Under the pieces are notes generated by a model. That model worked only from the letters and a program-made list of their open reading frames with translations, did not search any database and had not been told where the DNA came from. Source: an uncultured Moraxella sp. (GTDB lineage: Bacteria > Pseudomonadota > Gammaproteobacteria > Pseudomonadales > Moraxellaceae). From it: a stretch of DNA of 62,550 nt. Shown piece after piece: positions 8,722 to 20,753 of this stretch (its first letter is position 1; each line of letters begins with the position of its first letter). The stretch covers positions 1-62,550 of the forward strand of contig NZ_CAMCBS010000012.1 in the NCBI RefSeq assembly GCF_945873075.1, read 5' to 3'. A program made the translations under genes and the position numbers.

Positions 8722-9618
8722 ATGAGTAGCCATAAGCCTGCCAAATCATCTTTTAAAGACAAAGCCAAGCTGTCTAACGCCAAAAAATCCCACCACAAAG
8801 CTTTTGGCAAATCTGAGCACACAGGCTCAAAATCCTTCAAAGACAAAAAAGATGCCAAGCCAAAAAACCCGTATTTTTATGGCATCCATGCGGTGACGAT
8901 GCTACTTAAGCGTCGCCCCGAAGATGTGCTGAATGTCTTTATCCAAAGTCGTGATGATGGACAAATCAGCGATGAGCACGCCAAGATGATGCAGATGGCG
9001 CAGGAGTTTGGCATCAGTGTGCAGATGGCACACAAGGAGCGTCTAGCAGAGCTTGCCGACAGTCATCAGCATCAAGGTGTGGTGGCGCAGGCTCGTGTGA
9101 CGCCGATGGCGGATGAAGGGTTGCTTGATCAGCTGATGGCTAAGGATGATGCGCTGTTTTTGGTGCTGGATCAGATTACCGATGCGCACAATCTGGGTGC
9201 GTGTCTGCGCTCAGCGTGTGCGATGGGCGTGGATGCGGTGATCATCCCACGCCATCAGTCAGCACCGATCACGCCGACGGTCGCCAAAGTGTCGGTGGGT
9301 GCATCCGAAGTGATTGATGTGATTGCCGTGACCAATCTGGCTCGTACGCTTGATAAGCTCAAAAAAGCAGGTGTGTTCGTGTTTGGCACGGCGCTTGACG
9401 ATACCGCCAAGCCACTGCACAAGTGTGATTTTGGCGGTAAAGTCGCCATCATCATGGGTTCAGAAGGCGATGGGATGCGCAGACTCACCCAAGAGCTGTG
9501 TGATACTTTGGTCTATATCCCGATGGCGAATACGCCCGATCGCCCGCAGAGTCTCAATGTCAGCGTCGCCACTGGTATGGCGCTGTATGAAGTGGCTCGT
9601 CAGCGATTGATGGGATGA
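8722..9618 (+). CDS. rlmB: 23S rRNA 2'-O-methyltransferase RlmB
   Basis: The 298-residue protein belongs to the SpoU/TrmH family and methylates Gm2251 in the 23S rRNA P loop. It has the substrate-binding YFYGIHAVTMLLKRRPEDVL domain start, then knot motifs DAHNLGACLRSA, IIMGSEGDGMRRL and SLNVSVATGMALYE. It is longer than the E. coli protein because of a lysine/serine-rich N-terminal extension of about 48 residues (KPAKSSFKDKAKLSNAKK region), probably a disordered RNA-binding tail. The last knot motif carries a short extra TPDRPQ segment before the SLNVS. crcB follows after 15 bases. Confidence 0.88.
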   Translation: MSSHKPAKSSFKDKAKLSNAKKSHHKAFGKSEHTGSKSFKDKKDAKPKNPYFYGIHAVTMLLKRRPEDVLNVFIQSRDDGQISDEHAKMMQMAQEFGISVQMAHKERLAELADSHQHQGVVAQARVTPMADEGLLDQLMAKDDALFLVLDQITDAHNLGACLRSACAMGVDAVIIPRHQSAPITPTVAKVSVGASEVIDVIAVTNLARTLDKLKKAGVFVFGTALDDTAKPLHKCDFGGKVAIIMGSEGDGMRRLTQELCDTLVYIPMANTPDRPQSLNVSVATGMALYEVARQRLMG

Positions 9619-9633
9619 TGGCAGGATGATAAG

Positions 9634-9993
9634 ATGCTAAGCCAATGGCTGTGGGTCGCCATCGGTGCTGTCGGTGGCGCAAGTCTGCGATGGTTCATCG
9701 GTGTCTATCTACCTACAACAGCGACCGTGTCCATACCGACACTATTGGTCAATTTGGTTGGTTCATTCATCATGGGTGCGTTACTTGCGATGAGTTTATC
9801 CGATCAGTCACGGCTGTTGTGGGTGACGGGATTTTTGGGAAGTTTTACCACCTTTTCGGCTTTGTCCGCCAATGTACTTGAGATGCTCATCGCCCAAAAA
9901 TACACCCAAGCCATGCTCATCATCTTACTGCATCTACTCGGCGGTATCATGGCAGTGGTGATGGGATTTTGGCTTGGGCGAGCGTGTGGCTAA
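9634..9993 (+). CDS. crcB: Fluoride channel CrcB/Fluc
   Basis: The 119-residue four-helix membrane protein has the family motifs GGASLRWFIG near the N-terminus, LLVNLVGSFIMGALLAM in helix 2 with the conserved Asn, and the helix-3 break GFLGSFTTFSAL containing the Phe-box phenylalanine. The Fluc family forms dual-topology dimers that export F-. Only one copy is visible, so it should be a homodimer. No fluoride riboswitch is apparent upstream; it follows rlmB by 15 bases and is presumably read from the same message. Confidence 0.9.
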   Translation: MLSQWLWVAIGAVGGASLRWFIGVYLPTTATVSIPTLLVNLVGSFIMGALLAMSLSDQSRLLWVTGFLGSFTTFSALSANVLEMLIAQKYTQAMLIILLHLLGGIMAVVMGFWLGRACG

Positions 9994-10007
9994 CAACTAA
10001 AATCGGC

Positions 10008-10044
10008 AAAAAAGATATGTTCCACATGAAACATATCTTTTTTT
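10008..10044. terminator. Bidirectional terminator, crcB/rsuA
   Basis: A perfect 14-base inverted repeat has arms AAAAAAGATATGTT and AACATATCTTTTTT, with an 8-base loop between. It lies between the convergent ends of crcB and rsuA. Confidence 0.8.
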
Positions 10045-10047
10045 ATA

Positions 10048-10752
10048 TCAAAACTGCGCAATCTCATCAGGCTTTAGGAAACGACATTCGCCCATCTCAA
10101 GCCCATCAAGGGTGATGTCACCGATGCTGGCTCGGTGTAGTTCGATGACTTTATTGCCAAAATACGCCATCATACGCTTGACCTGATGGTATTTGCCTTC
10201 GGTCAAAATCAGTACGGCGTGCGTCTCATCGATGAATGATAGCTCGGCAGGGCGGGTTTTTTCGTCATCGCCATCAAGTAAGATACCGTTTGCCACTTGT
10301 TTGATGGCGTGTGCCTGTGCGTCGGCATCCATCGGGTCGGCTAGGGTGAGCTCGTAGCGTTTTGGCTGATGGCGTTTTGGGCTGGTGACACGGTGTAGCC
10401 ATGCGCCATCATCGGACAGTAGCAGTGCACCTGTGGTATCGACATCGAGCCTGCCTGCGATACGTAGGCTATCGACTTCGGGCACAGCGATCAAATCGGT
10501 GACGATGGGATATTCTTTGGCTTTTAGGGTGCATTCAAAGCCGTCTGGCTTATACAGCAAAATATAGCGGTTGCCTTCGGCGACGGACAGTGGTTCACCC
10601 GCCCAAAGCACTTCATCACAGGCGACATCGATGTGATGGCTTGAGTCTTTGATGATGACGCCATTGACGCTGATTTCGCCGGCGTGCAGGACTTTTTTGG
10701 CGTCTTTGCGAGACAGTTCGGTGGCTTTGCTTAAAAATTTATCCAAACGCAT
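10048..10752 (-). CDS. rsuA: 16S rRNA pseudouridine-516 synthase RsuA
   Basis: The 234-residue protein has an N-terminal S4 RNA-binding domain (MRLDKFLSKATELSRK through ISVNGVIIKD). The RsuA/RluB catalytic domain follows, with the nucleophile-bearing motif AGRLDVDTTGALLLSDDG and the later EGKYHQVKRMMAYFGNKV motif. The start at 10752 follows the family consensus (MRLDKFLS); the frame is open four codons further. The size fits RsuA rather than the larger RluB. It is convergent with crcB. Confidence 0.88.
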   Translation of the reverse strand: MRLDKFLSKATELSRKDAKKVLHAGEISVNGVIIKDSSHHIDVACDEVLWAGEPLSVAEGNRYILLYKPDGFECTLKAKEYPIVTDLIAVPEVDSLRIAGRLDVDTTGALLLSDDGAWLHRVTSPKRHQPKRYELTLADPMDADAQAHAIKQVANGILLDGDDEKTRPAELSFIDETHAVLILTEGKYHQVKRMMAYFGNKVIELHRASIGDITLDGLEMGECRFLKPDEIAQF

Positions 10753-10876
10753 GAGTATTTCCATCGATAAATAATGCTAGTGTAGCATATTTTTGCCAAG
10801 CGTGCCGAGTCTTGATGATTTGTACAAATGGTCAAAGTGTGGGAAAATATCCCAAATCCACCACAAAAGAGCAGTT

Positions 10877-11470
10877 GTGAGCTACCAAACCCCAAGCGAG
10901 CCGTGTGAAGCGGTGTATGAAATCAAAAAAAGCGAGTTTTTGGCATTCGCCTATCCCATCAATAGCCGTGAAGAAGCGATGGGATATGTCGCCACGCTCA
11001 AGGCACGCTATCCTGACGCACGCCATCATTGCTATGGCTACATCATCGGCGATCCCAATAACACCACCAGCGCAGGCTTTGATGATGATGGCGAGCCAAA
11101 CGGCACGGCAGGCAGACCGATTTTGAATGTCTTACAACATAAGGCAATCGGCAACTGCATCATCATCGTGGTGCGATACTTTGGTGGGATCAAGCTTGGG
11201 GCAGGGGGCTTGACCCGTGCTTATGCGACATCGGCGCAGATGGCGGTGGATCAGATGACGCTGATAGCATTTATCCCAAAGGCGGTGGTGACGGTGCGAA
11301 CAAGCTTCGCCCACGAAGCACAGATGCGCTATCTGATAGGTGCGGTCGATGGCGAGATCATCTCGGTGGACTATGGCGCTGATGTCGTCATCCGTGCGCA
11401 GATGGATGCGGCGCGGGTGGATGACTTTGGTGCAGGGCTTGGGGTGTATGGTGTGGTGGTGGATGAGTGA
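10877..11470 (+). CDS. yigZ: YigZ/IMPACT family protein
   Basis: The 197-residue protein of the UPF0029/IMPACT family starts EAVYEIKKSEFLAFAYPI. It contains the family block ARHHCYGYIIG, then FDDDGEPNGTAGRPIL and VVRYFGGIKLGAGGLTRAY; a ferredoxin-like C-terminal domain follows. The family's biochemical function is unsettled. I chose the GTG at 10877 (VSYQTP) because it gives the usual family length; the frame runs back to a TTG at 10793 with sequence that does not resemble the family. The stop codon is followed at once by an uptake-sequence-like hairpin, the left edge of the island. Confidence 0.8.
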   Translation: MSYQTPSEPCEAVYEIKKSEFLAFAYPINSREEAMGYVATLKARYPDARHHCYGYIIGDPNNTTSAGFDDDGEPNGTAGRPILNVLQHKAIGNCIIIVVRYFGGIKLGAGGLTRAYATSAQMAVDQMTLIAFIPKAVVTVRTSFAHEAQMRYLIGAVDGEIISVDYGADVVIRAQMDAARVDDFGAGLGVYGVVVDE

Positions 11471-11475
11471 AAAAA

Positions 11476-11502
11476 GTCGTTTGAATACTCTGTTCAAACG
11501 GT
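11476..11502. terminator. Hairpin, yigZ/lysR, uptake-sequence-like
   Basis: The stem CGTTTGAA/TTCAAACG, with a 7-base loop, follows the yigZ stop by five bases and is trailed by GTATTTTTAT. The core GTCGTTTGAA is one change from the GTCGTCTGAA core of a Neisseriaceae uptake-sequence dialect. It serves as a terminator between convergent yigZ and lysR and marks the left boundary of the island. Confidence 0.6.
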
Positions 11503-11522
11503 ATTTTTATCGTACAAGCTTT

Positions 11523-12395
11523 TCAGGCTGGCTGACCCTCCAATTTACTGCTCACAAAATCCAAAAAAGCACGCATGACCGCTGATTGATAGCGATGTTT
11601 TAAATACAATAAATGCACAGAATAAGCCTGCGTCGGATAATCAGATAATATTTCAATTAAGCCATATTCATGAATTAAACGATTGGCAATCGTTTCAGGT
11701 AAATGCCCCACGCCACGCCCTTGTTGAATTAAATAAGCGATGGCATACACATCGTTGGAGGCAAACACATAAGGCAATTTCAACACCTTATTTTCTAATG
11801 AAATCATCAACTCTTTTTGTTCGGCTTTGGTAAAGCCTACACAAGGAAAATGTTGTAAATCATCAGGCGTTTGGGGTGTGCCGTACTTGGCTAAAATATT
11901 TGGGTGTGCCAAACATTTGGTTTTTGCCATAATCGCCAAACGAGCGACCGCATTATCCGTATGCAAATTTCCTGCCCGAAACGCAAAATCAATATTATCT
12001 TCAACCAAATCTAATACATGGTCGGTTACTTGGCAATGAACGCTCACTTTGGGATACAAAGTGCAAAATTCATCTATCCACGCCCACACTTCTTCCAGTC
12101 CTGTGAATGTAGAAATCCGCAGTTTTCCACTAATTTCTTGATTATCAGTCAAAGTTTTTTCTACTTGCAATAAATTATCGATATTTTGATAAACTTGCTC
12201 ATAGAGTTGTTGCCCTGCCATCGTGGGTTTAACGCCTGATTTTTTGCGGTCAAATAATTGAATATTTAATGATTTTTCTAGTTCTGTTATTTGACGGCTA
12301 ATGGTCGCAATCGGCACATTTAATCGCTCGGACGCTTTGGACAAACTGCCGTCTTGGACGACAGAAACAAATAGGCTTAACGCATTTAAATTCAT
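11523..12395 (-). CDS. LysR-family transcriptional regulator
   Basis: The 290-residue protein has an N-terminal winged helix (residues 1-60, MNLNALSLFVSVVQDGSLS and ATISRQITELEKSL). A periplasmic-binding-protein-like effector domain follows, containing ISTFTGLEEVWAWIDEFC and GRGVGHLPETIANRL. It is divergent from the flavoprotein gene at 12499, the classical arrangement of a LysR regulator and its target, so it probably controls that gene and itself. The codon use is more AT-rich than in neighbouring housekeeping genes. Its last codons (GQPA-stop) lie in a sequence one base off a Kingella-type uptake word. The effector is unknown. Confidence 0.85.
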   Translation of the reverse strand: MNLNALSLFVSVVQDGSLSKASERLNVPIATISRQITELEKSLNIQLFDRKKSGVKPTMAGQQLYEQVYQNIDNLLQVEKTLTDNQEISGKLRISTFTGLEEVWAWIDEFCTLYPKVSVHCQVTDHVLDLVEDNIDFAFRAGNLHTDNAVARLAIMAKTKCLAHPNILAKYGTPQTPDDLQHFPCVGFTKAEQKELMISLENKVLKLPYVFASNDVYAIAYLIQQGRGVGHLPETIANRLIHEYGLIEILSDYPTQAYSVHLLYLKHRYQSAVMRAFLDFVSSKLEGQPA

Positions 12396-12414
12396 AAGAT
12401 TTTCATTTTTGGAA

Positions 12415-12430
12415 AATATGTTCTCATATT
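12415..12430. promoter_or_regulatory. Candidate LysR operator
   Basis: The perfect dyad AATATG-TTCT-CATATT lies 20 bases upstream of the lysR start within the 103-base divergent spacer. It has the AT-rich interrupted-dyad form of LysR sites. Its role is inferred from shape and position. Confidence 0.4.
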
Positions 12431-12498
12431 ACGCCATTCTTTTATCAATTTCAATCATCTAAAATACACCTATTCTATTTTTAACACAGAGAAACATT

Positions 12499-13452
12499 AT
12501 GCAAAACAACCGTATTACCCAAATTTTAAATATCAAATATCCCATCGTCCAAGCCCCGATGTCATGGCTGACCGATGCTCATTTTGTGGCAAGTGTTGCC
12601 AATGCTGGCGGATTGGGATTTTTAGCACCACACGCTGGACAAACCACCAATCCACATTCCAATCAAGAAGTGTTAGACCGTATGCGTGCTGAAATTCGCA
12701 AAGTTAAAGCTTTGACGGATAAGCCTTTTGGCGTGCCGTTTATTTTGTCTTATGATTATTCGTTGATTCCGTTGATGGTGGATTTGCTGATTGAAGAGCA
12801 AGTGCCTGTGGTGCTGGATAATGGAATATTGGACGAAGAAATTTACGCCAAACTCAAACAGGCAGGGATTACCATTATTTGTCGTTTGCTCAATCCAAAT
12901 TTGCCAGACGCTTTAAAAGCCCAACAATTAGGTGCGGATATTTTGGTGCTGACAGGTTTTGATGAAGGCGGAACCTTGCCAATGAAAGAAATAGGCAGTT
13001 TTTCGGTATTGGCGGAATTTGTGGGCAAGGTGGATTTGCCGATGATGCTCGCTGGCGGTATTGCCGATAAGAAGTCTGTTCAGGCAGCGTTCATGCTTGG
13101 GGCGGAAGGGGTGTGGGTAGGCACGGCGTTTATTGCCACGCATGAATGCCGAGCCAGTCAGAAAGTGAAAGATTGGATTGTTCAATCAACTGCCAATGAT
13201 TTGTTATTGTTCCGTACCGAGCCTTATTATTACCGTTCTTTACCGACCGAACTTGCCAAAAAATGCTTTGAAATGAGCGAAAATGGGGCTACTCGTGCCG
13301 ATATTGCCAAAGTGATGAATGCAGGGACAGGGATGCGTTTGGGTATGCTGGAAGGCGATTTTGAGCATGGCTATGTGTCTGTGGGCAATGGGATTTCTGC
13401 TATTGACCGTGTGAAAAGTGTGCAGGAATTGGTTGATGAATTGATGGGTTAA
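12499..13452 (+). CDS. Nitronate monooxygenase-like flavoprotein
   Basis: The 317-residue TIM-barrel FMN protein belongs to the nitronate monooxygenase/FabK superfamily. It starts with IKYPIVQAPMSWLTDAHF and has ANAGGLGFLAPHAG near residue 37. The phosphate-binding strand-loop reads MLAGGIADKKSVQAAF (about 188-203) and is followed by LGAEGVWVGTAF. Likely chemistry is FMN-dependent oxidation of alkyl nitronates or a related NAD(P)H-linked reaction; FabK-type enoyl reductase is less likely in this gamma-proteobacterial setting. Divergently transcribed from the LysR gene and part of the AT-richer island. The ribosome site before ATG is weak. Confidence 0.75.
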   Translation: MQNNRITQILNIKYPIVQAPMSWLTDAHFVASVANAGGLGFLAPHAGQTTNPHSNQEVLDRMRAEIRKVKALTDKPFGVPFILSYDYSLIPLMVDLLIEEQVPVVLDNGILDEEIYAKLKQAGITIICRLLNPNLPDALKAQQLGADILVLTGFDEGGTLPMKEIGSFSVLAEFVGKVDLPMMLAGGIADKKSVQAAFMLGAEGVWVGTAFIATHECRASQKVKDWIVQSTANDLLLFRTEPYYYRSLPTELAKKCFEMSENGATRADIAKVMNAGTGMRLGMLEGDFEHGYVSVGNGISAIDRVKSVQELVDELMG

Positions 13453-13454
13453 GC

Positions 13455-13492
13455 AAAAAGCCTTTTGAATGTTGGGTTCAGACGGCTTTTTT
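13455..13492. terminator. Terminator carrying a perfect DUS core
   Basis: The hairpin arms are GCCTTTTGAA (13460-13469) and TTCAGACGGC (13477-13486), flanked by A5 and T6. The right arm is the exact reverse complement of GCCGTCTGAA, the 10-base Neisseria DNA-uptake sequence. It lies between the convergent flavoprotein and tetR genes, where Neisseria genomes typically place such terminators. Confidence 0.75.
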
Positions 13493-13523
13493 ATCGCCCA
13501 AAAATTTCAGCCTGCCTGAATTG

Positions 13524-13537
13524 ACCATTTCATCATA
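13524..13537. repeat. Direct repeat copy 1 flanking tetR
   Basis: ACCATTTCATCATA occurs here, 6 bases beyond the tetR stop, and again at 14191-14204, upstream of the next gene. Both copies are followed a few bases later by CTTATT. The pair brackets tetR and its promoter region. Confidence 0.55.
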
Positions 13538-13542
13538 CCGAC

Positions 13543-14094
13543 TTATTCTTGGATTAAATACACGATTTGTTCAAATTGAGCAAACATCCGTTCACTTTCT
13601 ATCATTTTATTGTGTTCAAGTTGATATTGAATCGCGTTCATCAGCATAACCGAGAAAATATGGGCTTGAAAATGCAACATTTCTGTATCAATAGACGGAT
13701 TGTGCATTTGTGCTTTTTTCATATAAGTAATTTTAATCATCTCATGCATATCTTGCCATAAATGATGACGCTTGGTGTTGATTTTCCAAAGTGCAAGCAA
13801 CATCAATCGCTTATCAAAAAAGAATTGACTGGCGATTTGCAAAAATTGCTTGGGATTGGGCGTGGTTAAACGCTCGTGTTGTAGCTGTGCTAATTCATAT
13901 TTAAATTGCTTAATTAACGCCCCTGCCAATGCACTTTTTCCTGCATAATATTTGTAAAACGTTTTGGGGTTAATCATGGCTTTTTCACAAAGCATCAATA
14001 CGCTGATTTGCTCAAATTCATGGGTTTGCAATAGGCTAATGAAACTGGTGTGTATCATATACAAAGTGCGTTGAATGCGTAAATCGGTGGTCAT
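13543..14094 (-). CDS. TetR-family transcriptional regulator
   Basis: The 183-residue protein has a TetR-type helix-turn-helix at the N-terminus: LYMIHTSFISLLQTHEFEQI, then VLMLCEKAMINPKTFYKYYAGK (about residues 12-54). A helical ligand/dimer domain rich in Phe, Leu and Met follows. It is divergent from the HXXEE membrane-protein gene, with a long perfect inverted repeat in the spacer, so it likely represses itself and that gene. Base composition is AT-rich like the rest of the island. The ligand is unknown. Confidence 0.82.
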   Translation of the reverse strand: MTTDLRIQRTLYMIHTSFISLLQTHEFEQISVLMLCEKAMINPKTFYKYYAGKSALAGALIKQFKYELAQLQHERLTTPNPKQFLQIASQFFFDKRLMLLALWKINTKRHHLWQDMHEMIKITYMKKAQMHNPSIDTEMLHFQAHIFSVMLMNAIQYQLEHNKMIESERMFAQFEQIVYLIQE

Positions 14095-14128
14095 GGTAAG
14101 ATAAAATTAGGTTAATATTGAACTGATT

Positions 14129-14174
14129 ATAGACTTAATGGTATAGATTTTGCAATTTATACCATTAAGTCTAT
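14129..14174. promoter_or_regulatory. 17-bp inverted repeat, probable TetR operator
   Basis: The two arms ATAGACTTAATGGTATA (14129-14145) and TATACCATTAAGTCTAT (14158-14174) are perfect complements across a 12-base loop. They sit in the middle of the 155-base spacer between divergent tetR and the HXXEE gene. A pair of inverted operator copies is the simplest reading; a cruciform or attenuator hairpin in the plus-strand leader is possible. Confidence 0.6.
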
Positions 14175-14190
14175 TTTTTATGAAATATTA

Positions 14191-14204
14191 ACCATTTCAT
14201 CATA
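14191..14204. repeat. Direct repeat copy 2 flanking tetR
   Basis: This is the second copy of ACCATTTCATCATA (the first is at 13524-13537), placed between the 17-base inverted repeat and the start of the HXXEE gene. Confidence 0.55.
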
Positions 14205-14249
14205 TGCGTCTTATTTGTAAACTGCATTCATTCAATACATGGGAAAAAA

Positions 14250-14984
14250 ATGATGATGAATGATTTTGTTGCACAATTTGATTTTGCTTGGTCTTGGTTG
14301 GGACTGGGTTTTGCTTTGGCAATGTTTGGCGTGTTGTTTTTGACCGATGTTTTTCGTGGCAATACCGCTAAATCAAGGCTTTGGGACGGACAATGGTTTG
14401 CGTGGCTGATTGCACCGATGTATATGCTACATCAATTTGAAGAATACGCTTTGCATTATGATTGGGCAAAATTGTCGCATCCATTTGCCAATATGATTTG
14501 TGAGAAAGTGGGCTATTTGCCTTATCCTGATTGCCCAATTCCTGTTCAACATTATTGGCTAGTGAATATGAGTTTGTGGCTGTTTGCGATGATTGGGGCA
14601 AAGTTTTATCGTAAAAATCCGATGGTGGCATTGGCTCCATTTGGGCTGATTTTTTCTAATGGGCTTTTGCACATTGTCGGCTGGCTCGTGTCGGGCAATT
14701 CACTGCTGGATTCGGCAAGTGGTGGCACGATAACCAGTATTTTATTGTTTATCCCTGTAAGCGTGTGGCTTGGCTTTGTGCTGACCAAGCAAAAGGTGAT
14801 GAGCGTGTGGGCGTATGGGGCAACGCTTTTGGCGGGAACGATTGGGCATTTGATTTTGTTTGGGGCGTATGCGTCTTTGGATAAAGGTGGTGTGGTGGCG
14901 TTATATACCTTTGATTTATTGGCGATTGGTTCGCCGCTTTTGTGGGCGTGGTTGTTGAGTCGTTGGTTTTTGGCAAACAAATGA
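14250..14984 (+). CDS. HXXEE domain membrane protein
   Basis: The 244-residue integral membrane protein has about seven hydrophobic helices. The family-naming motif is visible as MLHQFEEYALHYDWAK (H-x2-E-E, near residues 61-67). HXXEE proteins are uncharacterised; the conserved His and Glu pair in a membrane helix suggests a metal or proton site, which is speculation. It starts at the first of three tandem ATGs. It is divergent from tetR and lies at the right end of the island, converging on acr3 across an uptake-sequence-like hairpin. Confidence 0.75.
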   Translation: MMMNDFVAQFDFAWSWLGLGFALAMFGVLFLTDVFRGNTAKSRLWDGQWFAWLIAPMYMLHQFEEYALHYDWAKLSHPFANMICEKVGYLPYPDCPIPVQHYWLVNMSLWLFAMIGAKFYRKNPMVALAPFGLIFSNGLLHIVGWLVSGNSLLDSASGGTITSILLFIPVSVWLGFVLTKQKVMSVWAYGATLLAGTIGHLILFGAYASLDKGGVVALYTFDLLAIGSPLLWAWLLSRWFLANK

Positions 14985-15005
14985 TTTCAGGTAGCCCGAA
15001 AATTG

Positions 15006-15040
15006 AAAAAGCCGTTTGAAATGATATTCAAACGGCTTTT
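15006..15040. terminator. Terminator with inverted GCCGTTTGAA pair
   Basis: The perfect stem GCCGTTTGAA (15011-15020) and TTCAAACGGC (15027-15036) has a 6-base loop and A5/T4 flanks. It lies between the convergent HXXEE and acr3 genes. Each arm is one base from the Neisseria uptake core GCCGTCTGAA. It marks the right boundary of the island. Confidence 0.78.
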
Positions 15041-15048
15041 CCCACCCA

Positions 15049-16047
15049 TCATTGCCGACGATTGAGCCATGCCACAAGTGAAAGCATCACAGGCACTTCG
15101 ACCAGTACACCGACGACGGTCGCTAAGCTTGCACCAGAGTGTAAGCCAAATAGTGAAATCGCCACTGCTACCGCCAATTCAAAAAAGTTACTCGTACCAA
15201 TCAGACATGCAGGACCACAGATTTGGTGGGGGAGTTTTAAGTATTTTGCCAAACCATACGTCAAAAAGAAAATCCCATAAGTCTGCACTAACAACGGAAT
15301 GGCGATTAACAGAATAATGAGTGGATTATCCAAAATCGTCTGCGCCTGAAACGCAAATAACAGCACCACGGTTAATAATAATCCTGCGATTGAAAATGGT
15401 TTAAGACGAGCGCTAAGCTGTGCGATTTTGGCGGTATCTGCTTTTAGTAGCTTGCGGGTCATCATCCCAGCCAGCAAGGGCAGCAGCACATACAAGATGG
15501 TGCTATACACCAAAGTCTGCCACGGAATGCTGATGTCGCTCACTCCAAGCAAAAACCCTGCAATCGGCGCAAATGCAAAAATCATCACCATATCATTGAC
15601 CGACACCTGCACCAGCGTGTAGTTGGCATCACCTTTGACCAGCTGCGACCAGACAAACACCATCGCCGTACACGGTGCGACACCCAGCAAAATCATACCT
15701 GCGATGTACTCGCTTGCCGATGTCGGATCGACCAAATCAGCAAACAGCACTTTAAAAAACAGCCATCCAATCAGCGCCATGCTAAAAGGCTTAATCAGCC
15801 AATTGACAAACAATGTCAGTGCCAAGCCTTTGGGCTTTTTGCCGACATCTTTGATGGCTGACCAGTCAATCTGTATCATCATCGGATAAATCATCAGCCA
15901 AATCAGCACCGCCACCGGCAGATTGATGTGAGCAATCTCAAGCTTGGCAATTTGCCCAAACGCATCCGGCATAAGTAGTCCTAGTGCGACACCACAAGCA
16001 ATCGAGAGTGCCACCCATAGACTCAAATAACGCTCAAAAATCCCCAT
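15049..16047 (-). CDS. acr3: Arsenite efflux transporter ACR3
   Basis: The 332-residue, roughly ten-helix transporter belongs to the ACR3 family, which extrudes arsenite. The conserved cysteine motif [15 protein letters not shown] (helix 4) and the later [18 protein letters not shown] motif identify it and separate it from ArsB. Two tandem ATGs overlap the arsC stop (TAATGATG). I chose the second because AAGGGGG is then 5 bases away, but either is possible. It is the last gene of arsR-arsC-acr3 on the minus strand and would be induced by As(III) through ArsR. Confidence 0.9.
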
Positions 16048-16049
16048 CA

Positions 16050-16460
16050 TTACCCCCTTGCCACAATGACATCGCCGTCTTCTTTGACGAAATCGGTCAA
16101 TAAAGGCACAGGCGAAATCTCCAAAAACACTTCGGAAGGACGGCACAGTCGCACGCCGTTATTGGTGATGACGATTGGACGATTGATTAAAATGGGGTGG
16201 GCGAGCATAGCATTGATAATAGTATCATCATCAAGTGCTTCGTTATCGAGTCCACAGGCCAAAAATTCAGGCACATTGGTGCGTAATAATTGGCGTGGCG
16301 TCAAGTTCATCGCTGATAATAACTCACGCAAAGTACGCTCATCAGGCGGATTTTCCAGATAATGAATGATGGTCGGCTCAATCCCTAGGTGGCGAATGAG
16401 TGCTAATGTATTGCGTGAAGTGCCACAAGCGGGGTTGTGATAAATGGTGGTGTTTTTCAT
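16050..16460 (-). CDS. arsC: Arsenate reductase, glutaredoxin type
   Basis: The 136-residue protein reduces arsenate to arsenite with glutathione and glutaredoxin. The catalytic cysteine lies in [16 protein letters not shown] (C13), and the oxyanion-binding arginines are seen in [11 protein letters not shown] and in [18 protein letters not shown]. The length is normal for the E. coli R773 ArsC class. It is translationally coupled to acr3 downstream and lies 67 bases after arsR. Confidence 0.92.
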
Positions 16461-16527
16461 GACTTATCCTTACAATAATTCAAGAAACATTGAAATTATA
16501 ACTAAAAAAATCAGTCGCCCAAAAAAA

Positions 16528-16830
16528 TCAGCAACATTGCTCTTGGCTGTGGATACAGCAGTTTTGGGTCAGATAATGCGTCAATGCCATCATCAAGGTC
16601 AGATTGGCATAATAGCGGACAAATCGACCTTCTTGCTGACTGCGAATCAGCCCGACATGATGCAGTGATTTTAGGTGAAATGACAGCAAATTTGGTGCAA
16701 GATTCAGCTGTTTTGCCAAATCGCCAGCAATCATCCCTTGTGTGCCCATCGCTGACAATGCTTGAAAAATCGCCAAACGACTGGGCGATGAGAGAGCTTC
16801 AAATAACTGACTGGCTTGTTCGGTATTCAT
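16528..16830 (-). CDS. arsR: ArsR-family As(III)-responsive repressor
   Basis: The 100-residue winged-helix repressor contains LFEALSSPSRLAIFQALS and the recognition region NLAPNLLSFHLKSLHHVGLI. It lacks the E. coli-type ELCVCDLC site. Instead its C-terminus ends NCCIHSQEQCC, four cysteines in two pairs (C91-C92 and C99-C100), resembling the C-terminal arsenite site described for Acidithiobacillus ArsR. The ATG at 16830 (MNTEQAS) is chosen; the open frame upstream is hydrophobic and covers the promoter. It should repress the arsR-arsC-acr3 operon. Confidence 0.9.
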   Translation of the reverse strand: MNTEQASQLFEALSSPSRLAIFQALSAMGTQGMIAGDLAKQLNLAPNLLSFHLKSLHHVGLIRSQQEGRFVRYYANLTLMMALTHYLTQNCCIHSQEQCC

Positions 16831-16866
16831 AGGTATGGCAAAGCGTTGGGATATAAATATGTGCTT

Positions 16867-16895
16867 ATTATAAAGTGCTGTGATAAATAATTCAA
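16867..16895 (-). promoter_or_regulatory. Promoter of arsR-arsC-acr3
   Basis: On the minus strand, TTGAAT (16890-16895) and TATAAT (16867-16872) are exactly 17 bases apart, a near-consensus sigma-70 promoter. It lies about 40 bases upstream of the arsR ATG. The ArsR operator presumably overlaps it, but no clear dyad was found. Confidence 0.7.
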
Positions 16896-16947
16896 TCAGT
16901 CTTGAAATAAGAATAAAAGCGACGAAAGAAATGTGATGACCCAAAGC

Positions 16948-16978
16948 AAAAGCCACAAGCTTTCACTTGTGGCTTTTT
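16948..16978. terminator. Hairpin upstream of arsR
   Basis: The arms AAAAGCCACAAG and CTTGTGGCTTTT are perfect, with a 6-base loop and a T run on the plus side. It resembles an intrinsic terminator in both directions, yet no gene ends immediately beside it; it may insulate the ars promoter. Confidence 0.6.
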
Positions 16979-17103
16979 GGTGCATATCCTGCGTGCATCC
17001 TTACGGTGTTTCCATACTAACAGCTTATCATCCTTGCTTGATACATCCTGTATCGATTTCCTGTGCTGTTGGATATATTATGCCAAAATGATGATATCAG
17101 CAA

Positions 17104-17156
17104 AAGTGGCAAAAATCGGCAATGTTTGTACGAAATTTCGTACACGCTCGCCACTT
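17104..17156. repeat. Nested inverted repeats after VIT1 gene
   Basis: The perfect 18-base palindrome TGTACGAAATTTCGTACA (17127-17144) is enclosed by outer arms AAGTGGC (17104-17110) and GCCACTT (17150-17156). It starts 5 bases beyond the VIT1/CCC1 stop on the minus strand. It lacks a U tract close to the stem, so a protein-binding site is as likely as a terminator. Confidence 0.6.
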
Positions 17157-17161
17157 GTCCA

Positions 17162-17869
17162 TTAGCCTGCCACCGACACACCGAACAAGCGACCAATCAT
17201 CGCCGTCGCCGCCATCGCAAACACACCCCAAATCAGCACTCGAGCCATCGCTGGTACGACTTTGGCACCGCCAAGCTTGGCAGAACAATAACCCAATAGC
17301 GCAAGCCCTACCAAAGTCGTCGCCCCAAGCATGATGCTCAAATCTGCCCCAATGCGATTGCCAAGCCATAGGCTAATCAGTGGCAATACCGCACCGACGA
17401 TAAAGGCTGCTGCTGATGCCATCGCCGCTTCTAGTGGCTTGGCAGAATGGGTATCACTCAGCCCAATCTCATCACGGGCGTGTGCTTCTAGGGCGTTGTG
17501 CTCGGTCAGGGCGACGGCGACTTGCTTGGCAAGTGCATCATCAAGCCCACGCAGTTTGTAGATTTCGGTCAATTCATTCAGTTCTTTGTCAGGATTGTGC
17601 TTGAGCTCATAGGCTTCTTTGGCAAGGTCGCTTTTTTCGGTATCCGACTGTGATGACACCGAGATATACTCGCCTGCGCCCATTGACAGCGCACCACCGA
17701 TGATGGCGGCTAGGGCGGTGAGCATCAAGATATTCATAGTGGCATTACCTGCGACCATACCCATCAGTAGGCTAGCTGTCGAGATAAGACCGTCATTCGC
17801 CCCGAGTACGCCGGCGCGTAGCCAGTTGTTGCGTGAGCTAAAATGCGGTTCGGTATGAGCTGAATACAT
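17162..17869 (-). CDS. VIT1/CCC1 family Fe/Mn transporter
   Basis: The 235-residue membrane protein belongs to the VIT1/CCC1 family, whose characterised members move Fe2+ or Mn2+. It starts with NNWLRAGVLGANDGLISTASLL in helix 1. The helix-2 motif ALSMGAGEYISVSSQSDTEKSD and a charged cytoplasmic loop with HNALEAHARDEIGL follow, then three C-terminal helices. The start at 17869 is chosen because a GGAAAAA ribosome site precedes it; the frame is open 14 codons further. In bacteria these proteins probably export iron or manganese. The neighbouring znuD gene is also metal-related but is divergently transcribed. Confidence 0.85.
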   Translation of the reverse strand: MYSAHTEPHFSSRNNWLRAGVLGANDGLISTASLLMGMVAGNATMNILMLTALAAIIGGALSMGAGEYISVSSQSDTEKSDLAKEAYELKHNPDKELNELTEIYKLRGLDDALAKQVAVALTEHNALEAHARDEIGLSDTHSAKPLEAAMASAAAFIVGAVLPLISLWLGNRIGADLSIMLGATTLVGLALLGYCSAKLGGAKVVPAMARVLIWGVFAMAATAMIGRLFGVSVAG

Positions 17870-18025
17870 GGTTTTTCCAAAATGCATTGATTTGAGCCTA
17901 TTATACGCCAAGAATTGACATCGTGAATGACTGATTTGTCTTTAAATTGTACTTAAAAATGTTTCTATTTTTTGCCTAATTTCTTATCTGAAAATGGGTC
18001 TTGTTTACAAATTTGCTTGACGATA

Positions 18026-18043
18026 GTTATATAATAATATAAC
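18026..18043. promoter_or_regulatory. Candidate Zur operator of znuD
   Basis: GTTATATAATAATATAAC is an almost perfect palindrome (GTTATAT and ATATAAC around AATA) 76 bases upstream of the znuD start. It resembles Zur boxes of the GTTATA-N-TATAAC type but with a wider centre. TTGACG at 18017-18022 could be the -35 element of the same promoter, placing the dyad over the spacer and -10, an ideal repression site. Confidence 0.5.
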
Positions 18044-18119
18044 ATTATGTAACTTTATTCATTGACTTAATACATTTTTGAAATAATTGTTATACTTTAT
18101 CACCTATTAGGAAAAAATC

Positions 18120-20753
18120 ATGCACACCCAAACAAGACGCCTAAGCCCATTATTATTGGCAATCGGTGGCGTATTCGCCATGCAGTTAGCTTATGCTGAT
18201 GACACTGCATCTGACACACCTGCCACGACATCGACGGATATTGTGCCAACTGTGGTGCTCGACGGTGATGAGATTGTCGTCAGTCGCCGCACCGCCCAGA
18301 GCCTATTTGGACAAGCCAAGCCATCGGATGTCATCATCAAGCAAGAGACGCTCAAGAAAAATTCGGCAACACTTGGTGATGCTTTGGCGGGCGAGCTGGG
18401 CGTACATTCCAACCACTATGGCGGTGGTGCATCTGCACCCATCGTCCGTGGTCAAGAAGGTAAGCGACTCAAGGTACTCCAAAACAGCACCGATGTGCTT
18501 GATATGGCAAATCTATCGCCCGACCATGCGGTGATGGTCGATACCTTGCTTGCCAAGCAAGTCGAAATCGTGCGTGGCGCAAGCACCCTATTGTATAGCG
18601 CAGGCAATGTCGCAGGGCAAATCAATGTCGTGGATGATGTGATTAAGACGAGCGTGCCAAGTGTCGCTACCGGTGAAGTTAGTGCCCGCTATGGCAGTGC
18701 CAATGATGAGAAGCTGGTCAGTGCAGCGGTATCAGCAGGGATTGGCGAGCATATCGCCATCACCGCCCAAGGGCTCGTTCGTCGTGCAGGTGATTATCAG
18801 ACGCCCAAGCATCAGCAGTATCATTTTGACAGCGAAAAAGCACTCAAGGCACACATCGTCGCCCCTGATAACTTGGCAAGTCTAGAGTCAGAATATCAGC
18901 ACTGGCTTGCCAATCGTCATCAGACGCCGTATTTTCGCTATCGTCCTGTAGGCGAGCGCCACTTTATCCGTAGCGAGAGCGATTATCAAACTAAAAAACA
19001 AACTTACCAAAACGCCATCGTCACACCACAGACACTCGATTATCTGCCTGAGAGCTGGTCGGAGTCAGATGCGCTAGCGCTTGGTGTCTCGTGGGTGGGC
19101 GAGCGTGGCTATGTGGGTGCATCCATCAGCCATCGCCATGATGAGTACGGTCTGCCTGCGCACAATGCGATGTACGAAGGCTGTGGGGCGTATGTGATTT
19201 TGCCATCGAGCGAGCGCAAAAAGCCGTATCTGATGAGCTATCCACAGCTGATGGATGAGACGGATGTCAATTATCTCAATCCACGAGCGGACTGCTTGCA
19301 GGCGGCATCGTTTGATTCGAGTGGCAATCATACGCACAGCAGTACCGAGTCGCATGAGCATGGTGCGCCTTGGATTGACTTGACCAATCGTCGCTATGAC
19401 ATCAAGGCGGCGGTATATCAGCCGATGGCAGGCGTGGATAAGCTTGGCGTGAGTGTCGCTCATGCTGATTATCAGCATCAAGAAAAAGAAGGCACACGCA
19501 TCAGCAGTGATTTTCGTAACAAAGCCACCACAGCACGCATTGAGCTGACCCAAACGCCCACTGAGCGACTATCAGGCATCTGGGGCGTGCAGTATCTGAC
19601 GGCGGATAATAGCGCACTTGCCCCGAGTGTCTATAAAGGACGGCAAATGCTTGGCACAAATAGCACGGATAATTGGGCAATCTTTGGGCTACAGCAGTAT
19701 CAGCTCGGTGATGTGACGCTAGAAGCATCGGCTCGTGCGGCATCACAGCGTATCAAGATGCACTATGATACGGACAAGATTGCATCAGTGATGCAGCCCA
19801 ATCCGATTAGTGAGCGTTGTGCCAAAAATGCGGTTTGTTCAGCGACTGTCGCTGCCGCCAATGCCGAGCGTGCATCCGATTTGGCAAATGCCCTAGACAA
19901 TACCAAGCCAAACGAACAGCACGCCTTCTCATACGCCATCGGTGCCAAGTGGCAAGTAACACCTGAATACCGCCTAAGCATCAGTGCATCGCACCAAGAA
20001 CGCTTGCCAACCGCCCAAGAGCTTTATACGCATGGGATGCACCTAGCGACCAGCTCATTTGAAGTGGGCAATAAGGATTTGACCAAAGAAAAATCCAACA
20101 ACATTGAGCTTGCACTCGGCTATCAAGGCGAGCGACTTGATTATCAATTATCCGCTTATTATTATGATTTTGATAATTATATCTATCTACAGACGCTCAA
20201 TGAATCGCTTGGCAATAGCACGGTGATTGCGCCGTATTCGCTCAAAATCAACCGCTATAGCCAGTCTGGGGCGAAGTTTCATGGCTTTGAAGGCAAGATT
20301 GGTTATCAGTTGAATGATACTTATCATGCATCCGTATTTGGCGATGTCATCAATGGGCGATTGGTGGATTTGCCTGATGCGGTGGTAGCGTATGATAGAA
20401 CGACAGGCAAAAAAACCTATGAACCACAAGCCAATCGACCCACGCCGCGCCTACCGCCCATGCGTCTAGGCACACGCCTAAAGGCTGAGTTTGGTGAGCA
20501 GTGGACGGGCGAGCTTGAGTATTATCGAGTGTTTGACCAAGATAAATTATCCAAATTCGAGCACAAGACCGCAGGGCATGATATGCTAAATTTGGGGCTG
20601 ACTTACCAAAAGCCGATGGCATATGGCGATGTCGATGTCTTTATCAAGGCGGATAATCTCTTGAACCAAAAAGTCTATGCACACGCAACTTATTTACCCT
20701 ATATTCCGCAGATGGGGCGTAGCATCAGCTTTGGGGCGACTTATCGCTTTTAG
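18120..20753 (+). CDS. znuD: TonB-dependent zinc receptor, ZnuD-like
   Basis: The 877-residue outer-membrane receptor has a signal peptide of about 26 residues (cut after AYA). The TonB box region DEIVVSRR lies near residue 50, and the plug domain has YGGGASAPIVRGQEGKRLKV, SPDHAVMVDTLLAKQVEIVR and LLYSAGNVAG. A 22-strand beta barrel follows, closing with ATYRF. Segments recalled from Neisseria ZnuD recur throughout, including LPTAQELYTHGMHLAT and SNNIELALGYQGERLDY. A histidine-rich loop (HTHSSTESHEHG, near residue 403-414) fits zinc capture. Control by Zur is inferred from the upstream palindrome. Confidence 0.88.
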   Translation: MHTQTRRLSPLLLAIGGVFAMQLAYADDTASDTPATTSTDIVPTVVLDGDEIVVSRRTAQSLFGQAKPSDVIIKQETLKKNSATLGDALAGELGVHSNHYGGGASAPIVRGQEGKRLKVLQNSTDVLDMANLSPDHAVMVDTLLAKQVEIVRGASTLLYSAGNVAGQINVVDDVIKTSVPSVATGEVSARYGSANDEKLVSAAVSAGIGEHIAITAQGLVRRAGDYQTPKHQQYHFDSEKALKAHIVAPDNLASLESEYQHWLANRHQTPYFRYRPVGERHFIRSESDYQTKKQTYQNAIVTPQTLDYLPESWSESDALALGVSWVGERGYVGASISHRHDEYGLPAHNAMYEGCGAYVILPSSERKKPYLMSYPQLMDETDVNYLNPRADCLQAASFDSSGNHTHSSTESHEHGAPWIDLTNRRYDIKAAVYQPMAGVDKLGVSVAHADYQHQEKEGTRISSDFRNKATTARIELTQTPTERLSGIWGVQYLTADNSALAPSVYKGRQMLGTNSTDNWAIFGLQQYQLGDVTLEASARAASQRIKMHYDTDKIASVMQPNPISERCAKNAVCSATVAAANAERASDLANALDNTKPNEQHAFSYAIGAKWQVTPEYRLSISASHQERLPTAQELYTHGMHLATSSFEVGNKDLTKEKSNNIELALGYQGERLDYQLSAYYYDFDNYIYLQTLNESLGNSTVIAPYSLKINRYSQSGAKFHGFEGKIGYQLNDTYHASVFGDVINGRLVDLPDAVVAYDRTTGKKTYEPQANRPTPRLPPMRLGTRLKAEFGEQWTGELEYYRVFDQDKLSKFEHKTAGHDMLNLGLTYQKPMAYGDVDVFIKADNLLNQKVYAHATYLPYIPQMGRSISFGATYRF

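Follow-up and report, generated by a model that had tools for sequence, protein, structure and literature searches.

Worn hairpins around a Moraxella gene block appear to mark the module junctions of an accessory region shared by mucosal bacteria

The window analysed here is a 62,550-nt (62.5 kb) stretch of DNA from an uncultured Moraxella sp. It contains a block of four genes at positions 11471 to 15048, namely lysR, the gene of an NMO-family flavoprotein, a tetR-like gene and the gene of an HXXEE protein, with hairpins at three convergent gene ends. We propose, with a probability of about 0.68, that this block belongs, in a trimmed form, to an accessory region shared by several bacterial families, the modules of which often end in composite terminators with the uptake signals of two families. 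The hairpins appear to be worn module junctions, and detoxification and anti-virus genes appear to be shuffled between mucosal bacteria. An earlier interpretation made from the letters alone (the sequence-only reading) had placed a hairpin at each of the three gene ends, which we confirm. It had also claimed that the block was foreign, tagged for DNA uptake and decayed, which our results support, and that it came from a Neisseriaceae donor, which they do not; as a whole, it is thus partly supported.

When the window was scanned for the palindrome TTTCAGGCWGCCTGAAA with up to 3 mismatches, three hits were found (11521, 13505 and 14985), each beside one hairpin, against a mean of 0.13 in 15 shuffles of the window. 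TTTCAGGCWGCCTGAAA is the overlapping kingDUS/simDUS dyad of some Neisseriaceae, kingDUS and simDUS being dialects of their DNA uptake sequence (DUS). The window copies carry 2, 2 and 3 mismatches, and intact copies are found in related regions. Palindromes also overlap the 3' end of lysR in genomes G111, G095 and G481. Among our DNA samples, the Neisseriaceae G094, G095 and G111 are rich in simDUS, whereas Neisseria weixii and G080 have GCCGTCTGAA instead. The frequent form in related loci is AAACACCGyTTG-loop-CAAGCGGTGTTTTT, about 20 nt (partly with AAATTTTGCAAAA) and the palindrome, in other words a terminator hairpin holding the Apl-type uptake signal sequence (USS) of Pasteurellaceae, followed by the king/simDUS palindrome.

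In the DNA sampled, this composite is largely confined to the regions compared. A CCG..CGG hairpin lies within 62 nt of 16 of the 25 palindromes in 11 Moraxella loci, of 13 of the 20 in 10 Pasteurellaceae loci, of one of two in Pelistega and of 12 of 38 in regions of simDUS-rich Neisseriaceae; outside these regions, the same Neisseriaceae have it at 0 of 75 palindromes. The Moraxella regions (146 kb) hold 25 palindromes and 11 hairpins of this class, and control Moraxella DNA from elsewhere in region-bearing genomes (G013, G006 and G010; 200 kb) holds neither. Likewise, 20 palindromes and 22 class hairpins were counted in the Pasteurellaceae regions (174 kb), compared with no palindrome and a single class hairpin in control DNA from other parts of region-bearing Apl-type Pasteurellaceae genomes (G566, G565 and G569; 180 kb). 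The tags may also have been acquired successively as modules moved from family to family, which would have left the same pattern.

For comparison with native USS, we collected 44 ACAAGCGGT sites in three Apl-type genomes, from 180 kb outside the regions. A TTTT tract, an AAA tract and TTTTGCAAA are clearly recognisable downstream at these sites, with a TTTTGCAAA-type element 23-25 nt past the ACAAGCGGT start in 19 of 44. Such an element lies 24-25 nt past the TTCAAGCGGT start at 8 of 21 region sites, within about two bases of the native distance, and a palindrome-like sequence follows within 40 nt at 17 of the 21. Related composites retain CAAGCGGT, often preceded by TT or G, and the hairpin slot is DUS-like in Actinobacillus minor and in one copy each from G481 and G111. 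No downstream AT tracts with GCAAA at a fixed distance were seen in the window, the arms of which read CAAACGGT, CAGACGGC and CAAACGGC rather than ACAAGCGGT with its GCGG. The terminators of NMO orthologues form a graded series, from ACCGCTTGT..CAAGCGGT through ACCGTTTG..TTCAAGCGGT and GCCGTTTGAA..TTCAAACGGT to GCCGTCTGAA..TTCAGACGGC. We therefore read the window hairpins as worn composites that kept the fold as their stems drifted, presumably towards a DUS-like form. Hairpin 2 of the window and the G111 hairpin have TTGGGTTCA in common.

Homology between related loci tends to break at the palindromes. In 24 loci not chosen for palindromes, 102 of 385 ends of pairwise DNA homology between different genomes fall within 100 nt of a palindrome, where 14.2 were expected under a uniform model that, as for the simDUS proximity given below, ignores the relatedness of the genomes; the count exceeds expectation in 16 of the 19 loci having palindromes. 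With 18 further loci chosen for simDUS clusters, the figures are 237 of 704 (expected 41.9), or 192 of 437 (expected 59.6) for ends near the 3' ends of open reading frames only; these 18 loci bias the larger set, and the test was repeated without them. Right ends are most frequent at the outer palindrome edge, and left ends at the palindrome start. The clearest join is found in G523 and G533, in which an acr3 fragment is joined at a palindrome to a cassette of cadR and an efflux gene, which between its two palindromes is 96.5% identical to that of Moraxella G009. What is shared across this join is the palindrome, with no more than about ten additional bases. Between NMO and acr3, Pelistega has a single hairpin and the window has hairpin 2, tetR, HXXEE and hairpin 3, which may represent a gain in the window or a loss in Pelistega.

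Breaks at palindromes and the recurrence of identical hairpins in several families would also be left by a non-autonomous mobile repeat, similar to repetitive extragenic palindromes or miniature inverted-repeat transposable elements, that inserts at gene ends and merely resembles uptake signals. We consider this improbable, since two known uptake motifs are matched, partly with the outlying AT element of the USS, since the loops have several different sequences, and since the hairpin does not accompany the palindromes of simDUS hosts outside the regions.

In most genomes compared, lysR and NMO stand close together with differing genes around and between them, and this frame occurs in Moraxella, Pasteurellaceae, Pelistega and Neisseriaceae. 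Its cargo, named from profile matches, annotation and resemblance, includes copper and arsenite genes, a cation efflux gene together with cadR, oxidoreductases of the luciferase-like and short-chain types, and an S33 hydrolase. Exact simDUS lie within 15 kb of NMO at 28 of 76 sites in 11 NMO-bearing Moraxella genomes (expected 0.99), and the reversed simDUS used as a control has no occurrence in 22 Moraxella genomes. All 11 simDUS sites of G481, a member of the Pasteurellaceae, are located within 47 kb of one contig, this region included.

The place directly upstream of lysR is often taken by a defence gene. A same-strand gene overlaps the called lysR start or ends at most 12 nt from it in 11 of 22 lysR copies; a twelfth copy, which is broken, follows Avs2 at a distance. 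PADLOC matched 8 of the 10 abutting genes scanned, to seven known or candidate anti-phage families (Avs2, type III restriction in two cases, PDC-S01, NERD, PDC-S06, Lamassu and PDC-M12, of which the PDC families are candidate defence families only). On the divergent side of lysR, used as a control, it matched one of seven genes, that of an M78-peptidase-like protein in G005 (E 4e-14). The lysR-abutting gene of G005, outside the PADLOC scan, clusters with the PDC-M12 pair of G094. Both PADLOC-negative abutting genes belong to one protein family, c25 (L153:10764-12536 and L125:4699-6475; 591 aa in G565), for which no PADLOC or Pfam match was found, nor any NCBIfam match for the G565 copy, and which we regard as a candidate defence family. 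In Actinobacillus indolicus, window positions 12433-12508 are matched on both sides of the cargo. The relatives thus show the conserved flanks and changing defence cargo of a hotspot; the window does not, because its slot is empty, with lysR and NMO 103 nt apart.

The window hairpins have the arms GTCGTTTGAA and ACCGTTTGAA (11476-11502), GCCTTTTGAA and GCCGTCTGAA (13460-13486), and GCCGTTTGAA twice (15011-15036). The exact Neisseria 10-mer is present in only one of the six arms (13477-13486), and none of these three inverted pairs has the exact GCCGTCTGAA core of the Neisseria AT/AG-DUS in both arms. Counted singly, near-matches with one mismatch show no clear enrichment in the window (17 vs 12.3 expected, with 17 reached in 13 of 100 shuffles). 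Inverted pairs of GYCGTYTGAA-like arms number three, compared with none in each of 30 first-order Markov shuffles, so the hairpins stand out by pairing rather than by single near-matches. The statement that the other convergent-end terminators are unrelated holds as far as the pair scan goes, as it returned these three alone. RNA folding yields z values of -4.3, -3.3 and -7.1 for hairpins 1 to 3 on the + strand and of -2.0, -2.7 and -9.5 on the - strand. With stable stems and T-runs at gene ends, the hairpins have the make-up of intrinsic terminators, hairpin 1 being weak in one direction in view of its - strand value. In the whole genome, GCCGTYTGAA occurs 21 times, vs 5 for the reversed control and far from the hundreds of copies typical of AT/AG-DUS. 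There are two perfect pairs (one in the window and C11:63318-63348), and such pairs are present in three of 22 Moraxella genomes, this one included. Given these counts and the shuffles, the hairpins are no general feature of the genome; the sequence-only reading had named a low count outside such blocks as support for transfer, and the count is low.

Could they be ordinary Moraxella terminators whose stems read GCCGTTTGAA by chance, with no link to uptake? A terminator-like TGCCGTTTGAACTGACAAACGGCA between other genes (C1:104697), the NMO terminator of M. oblonga, which reads ACACCGTTTG..AAACGGTGT, and the unremarkable number of single near-matches would fit. We nevertheless hold this to be unlikely, at roughly one chance in ten: shuffles contain no pairs, palindrome relics adjoin all three hairpins, perfect pairs are rare in the genus and class hairpins absent from the 200 kb of other Moraxella DNA, and the hairpin is shared along with NMO across families.

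The ancestry of the genes lends no support to Neisseriaceae as the direct source. The window NMO protein is 95% identical to those of A. indolicus and A. minor, 94% to that of Pelistega suis and 84% to that of N. weixii, contrary to the expectation that its best matches would be found in Neisseriaceae. At the DNA level, identity is 90% with A. indolicus, 87% with A. minor and P. suis, 88% with Moraxella G013 and about 78-82% with the five closest Neisseriaceae relatives. The matches to A. indolicus, A. minor and Pelistega pass through hairpin 2 to 13489-13492, and that to G013 ends before it. In the trees, the window NMO groups with three Pasteurellaceae and one Moraxella (support 97/99) and the clade that holds the window lysR comprises five Pasteurellaceae and two Moraxella (100/100). 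The NMO protein tree, from which broken copies were left out, has poor resolution, with good support for 3 of 20 inner branches and a bootstrap that had not settled, and therefore only the window's clade was used from it; the lysR tree intermixes three families, with a weak shuffle test (as low in 28 of 200). HXXEE relatives are few: 38-39% identity in 3 of 140 Pasteurellaceae genomes and 30% in one more, 31% and 28% in two of 83 Neisseriaceae genomes, with one further match there of just 39 residues; another 368 genomes sampled from the class yielded none. G481 has a tetR-HXXEE pair about 6 kb from a broken lysR. The expected absence of the block from most Moraxella applies to tetR, with weak DNA matches in only two others of the 22 genomes, and not to NMO, with a DNA match in 12 of the 22, this one included. 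As regards the niche that the sequence-only reading took donor and host to share, several of the relatives carry names of pig bacteria.

The donor account of the sequence-only reading, in which Neisseriaceae with GCCGTCTGAA-type DUS passed the block on directly and decay followed, can draw on the exact DUS arm of hairpin 2, on the 475 such hairpins of N. weixii and on the NMO relatives in Neisseriaceae, yet it is the least probable account, with only a slim chance of being right, as lysR and NMO are nearer to Pasteurellaceae and G013, HXXEE is nearly absent from Neisseriaceae, GCCGTTTGAA is no dialect among 83 genomes of that family and the palindrome relics are of the king/sim dialect. These relics do suggest a Neisseriaceae stage somewhere in the history of the block. 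The idea that GCCGTTTGAA is an unrecorded Neisseriaceae dialect was rejected, the largest count in those genomes being 134 vs 23 in the control.

The limits of the block also need revision. Hairpins do bound it as described, but the island extends past 15048: NMO, a single hairpin and acr3-arsC-arsR directly adjoin one another in Pelistega, with 84% identity to window 15006-16914, and the three ars genes probably belong to the same island. The four genes are indeed more AT-rich than yigZ and acr3 (GC 0.393 for lysR, 0.452 for NMO, 0.357 for tetR and 0.445 for HXXEE, compared with 0.534 and 0.474). As lysR and tetR with HXXEE reach just the 13% quantile among the window's 900-nt stretches, AT-richness alone is weak evidence, and we dropped it as proof of transfer.

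Several observations weigh against a shared region with two-family terminators. No CCG..CGG hairpin accompanies 9 of the 25 Moraxella and 7 of the 20 Pasteurellaceae palindromes, GCAAA stands between hairpin and palindrome in only 16 of 42 pairs, the TTTTGCAAA-type element is missing at 13 of the 21 region TTCAAGCGGT sites, and the GCGG core of the USS is gone from the window arms. Exact simDUS is absent from the genome under study. G012, G002 and G017 (five, one and two sites) have none near NMO, and 61 of 140 Pasteurellaceae have simDUS, many of them away from NMO among the matches listed. In the homology-end counts, related genomes are non-independent cases, and the clean join of G523 and G533 is probably one event, because G486 has the same stretch at 98%. 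Finally, the tetR-HXXEE pair has distant relatives only, which do not trace its source.

If the shared-region reading holds, modules would often end in a hairpin with an Apl-type USS (a Neisseria DUS in some copies) and then the king/simDUS palindrome. On this reading, competent cells of either family would take up DNA tagged in this double way, and modules would then be exchanged by recombination at lysR, at NMO or at the palindromes. In the window, the uptake parts would have decayed and their presumed uptake function would have been lost, termination was probably kept, and the defence slot stands empty. A further, more tentative step, which we think rather less likely than not to be correct, is to regard the whole as an integrase-free cassette system (integrases were not searched for) in which one joint serves as terminator, two-family uptake signal and recombination joint. 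In that case, modules for detoxification and against phages would be circulating among competent mucosal bacteria. Such a pairing of signals may have arisen twice, as Apl-USS with king/simDUS and as Hin-USS within DUS hairpins in Chelonobacter.

Defence hotspots between conserved genes have a fixed frame and changing anti-phage systems, as does the lysR-NMO region; unlike in general hotspots, the defence genes here end on or beside the lysR start codon and are associated with uptake tags. Transfer between Haemophilus and Neisseria, of genes tagged with the other family's uptake sequences, was reportedly described by Kroll in 1998. Our case differs from it in that a composite recurs, at many modules, and in Moraxella and Pelistega too. 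Such transfer and uptake signals in terminators are already known. Uptake signals form terminators, most often between convergent genes (PMC1852404). The terminators of inverted USS or DUS pairs are similar to ours in this respect, and differ in that each of ours, placed at a module end, unites signals from two families. For Simonsiella muelleri, one report gives 1294 overlapping king/sim pairs in dyad symmetry (Frye 2013, PMC3630211). The same overlapping pair forms the palindrome here; unlike the dialects of Neisseriaceae (kingDUS, simDUS, AT/AG-DUS), it occurs here in three further families, in many cases next to a USS-like hairpin, and is decayed in the window. Apl-USS consists of ACAAGCGGT and two AT-rich parts downstream of it, the first positions being weak, and DUS and USS are described as highly dissimilar motifs that bias transformation to own-kind DNA (both PMC12616744). 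DUS dialects are described as barriers to exchange between species in PMC3630211, and DUS evolution is a subject of PMC2397512. Among the openly licensed papers listed, no title or abstract opening describes the two-family composite, its use at cassette joints or the lysR-NMO defence slot. Two-family terminators at the joints of mobile modules would amount to doors in the own-kind uptake barrier. The spread of defence and metal-resistance genes among respiratory bacteria without phage or plasmid machinery becomes testable, and the composite offers a sequence handle for further cassettes and for unknown defence genes, of which that of the 591-aa G565 protein is a candidate.

Table 1. Features of the block and its right-hand neighbours in the window
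Feature	Position	Strand	Remark
Hairpin 1, terminator between yigZ and lysR	11471..11510	.	Decayed composite by interpretation
Relic king/simDUS palindrome, 3 mismatches, over lysR 3' end	11521..11537	.	
lysR, conserved frame gene	11523..12395	-	Defence genes abut start codon in relatives
Divergent lysR/NMO promoter, 103 nt, empty slot	12396..12498	.	
NMO-family flavoprotein (Pfam NMO), conserved frame gene	12499..13452	+	
Hairpin 2	13455..13492	.	DNA homology of A. indolicus, A. minor and Pelistega reaches outer edge
Relic king/simDUS palindrome, 2 mismatches	13505..13521	.	
TetR-like regulator	13543..14094	-	Without own Pfam match; in one cluster with G013 and G481 proteins matching TetR_N
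HXXEE protein, divergent from tetR	14250..14984	+	
Relic king/simDUS palindrome, 2 mismatches	14985..15001	.	
Hairpin 3, perfect inverted repeat	15006..15040	.	Pelistega ars-side homology begins here
acr3, arsC, arsR	15049..16956	-	Outside first-given block coordinates

As for an integrase-borne island, no tRNA was found in a search of the whole window, and integrases were not searched for; positions 9000-20000 gave no Rfam feature. An imperfect 108-nt inverted repeat (75%) at 14097-14204, between the divergent tetR and HXXEE genes, is possibly an operator region. Upstream of arsR, 183 nt without a long open reading frame and without tRNA or Rfam match (16962-17144) are 88% identical to the DNA directly past the lysR stop in Moraxella G013 (L121:13626-13808). 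Plasmid carriage of tetR or HXXEE was considered and rejected, with one 34% match for HXXEE and about 31% over part of tetR among the matches listed. A 24-kb plasmid of Glaesserella parasuis (NZ_CP071488.1; L135:9296-20946) carries NMO, split over two reading frames, together with lysR, type III restriction and metal genes.

Two-family tagging is also seen at other loci. In the genome under study, C11:63318-63576 (L077:8819-9077), flanked by an AAA ATPase gene and by cas1 of a type I-C CRISPR system, has an exact inverted DUS pair, a further DUS arm facing a wadDUS-like arm and, 36 nt away, a Haemophilus-type USS, and is another defence locus with the signals of both families. In Chelonobacter oris (L036 and contig C13 of G028), Hin-USS lie in the loop of DUS hairpins; 4 of 8 in L036 are within 40 nt of a DUS, where 4.9% coverage predicts 0.4, and this contig holds each of the 7 perfect DUS hairpins that the genome yielded.

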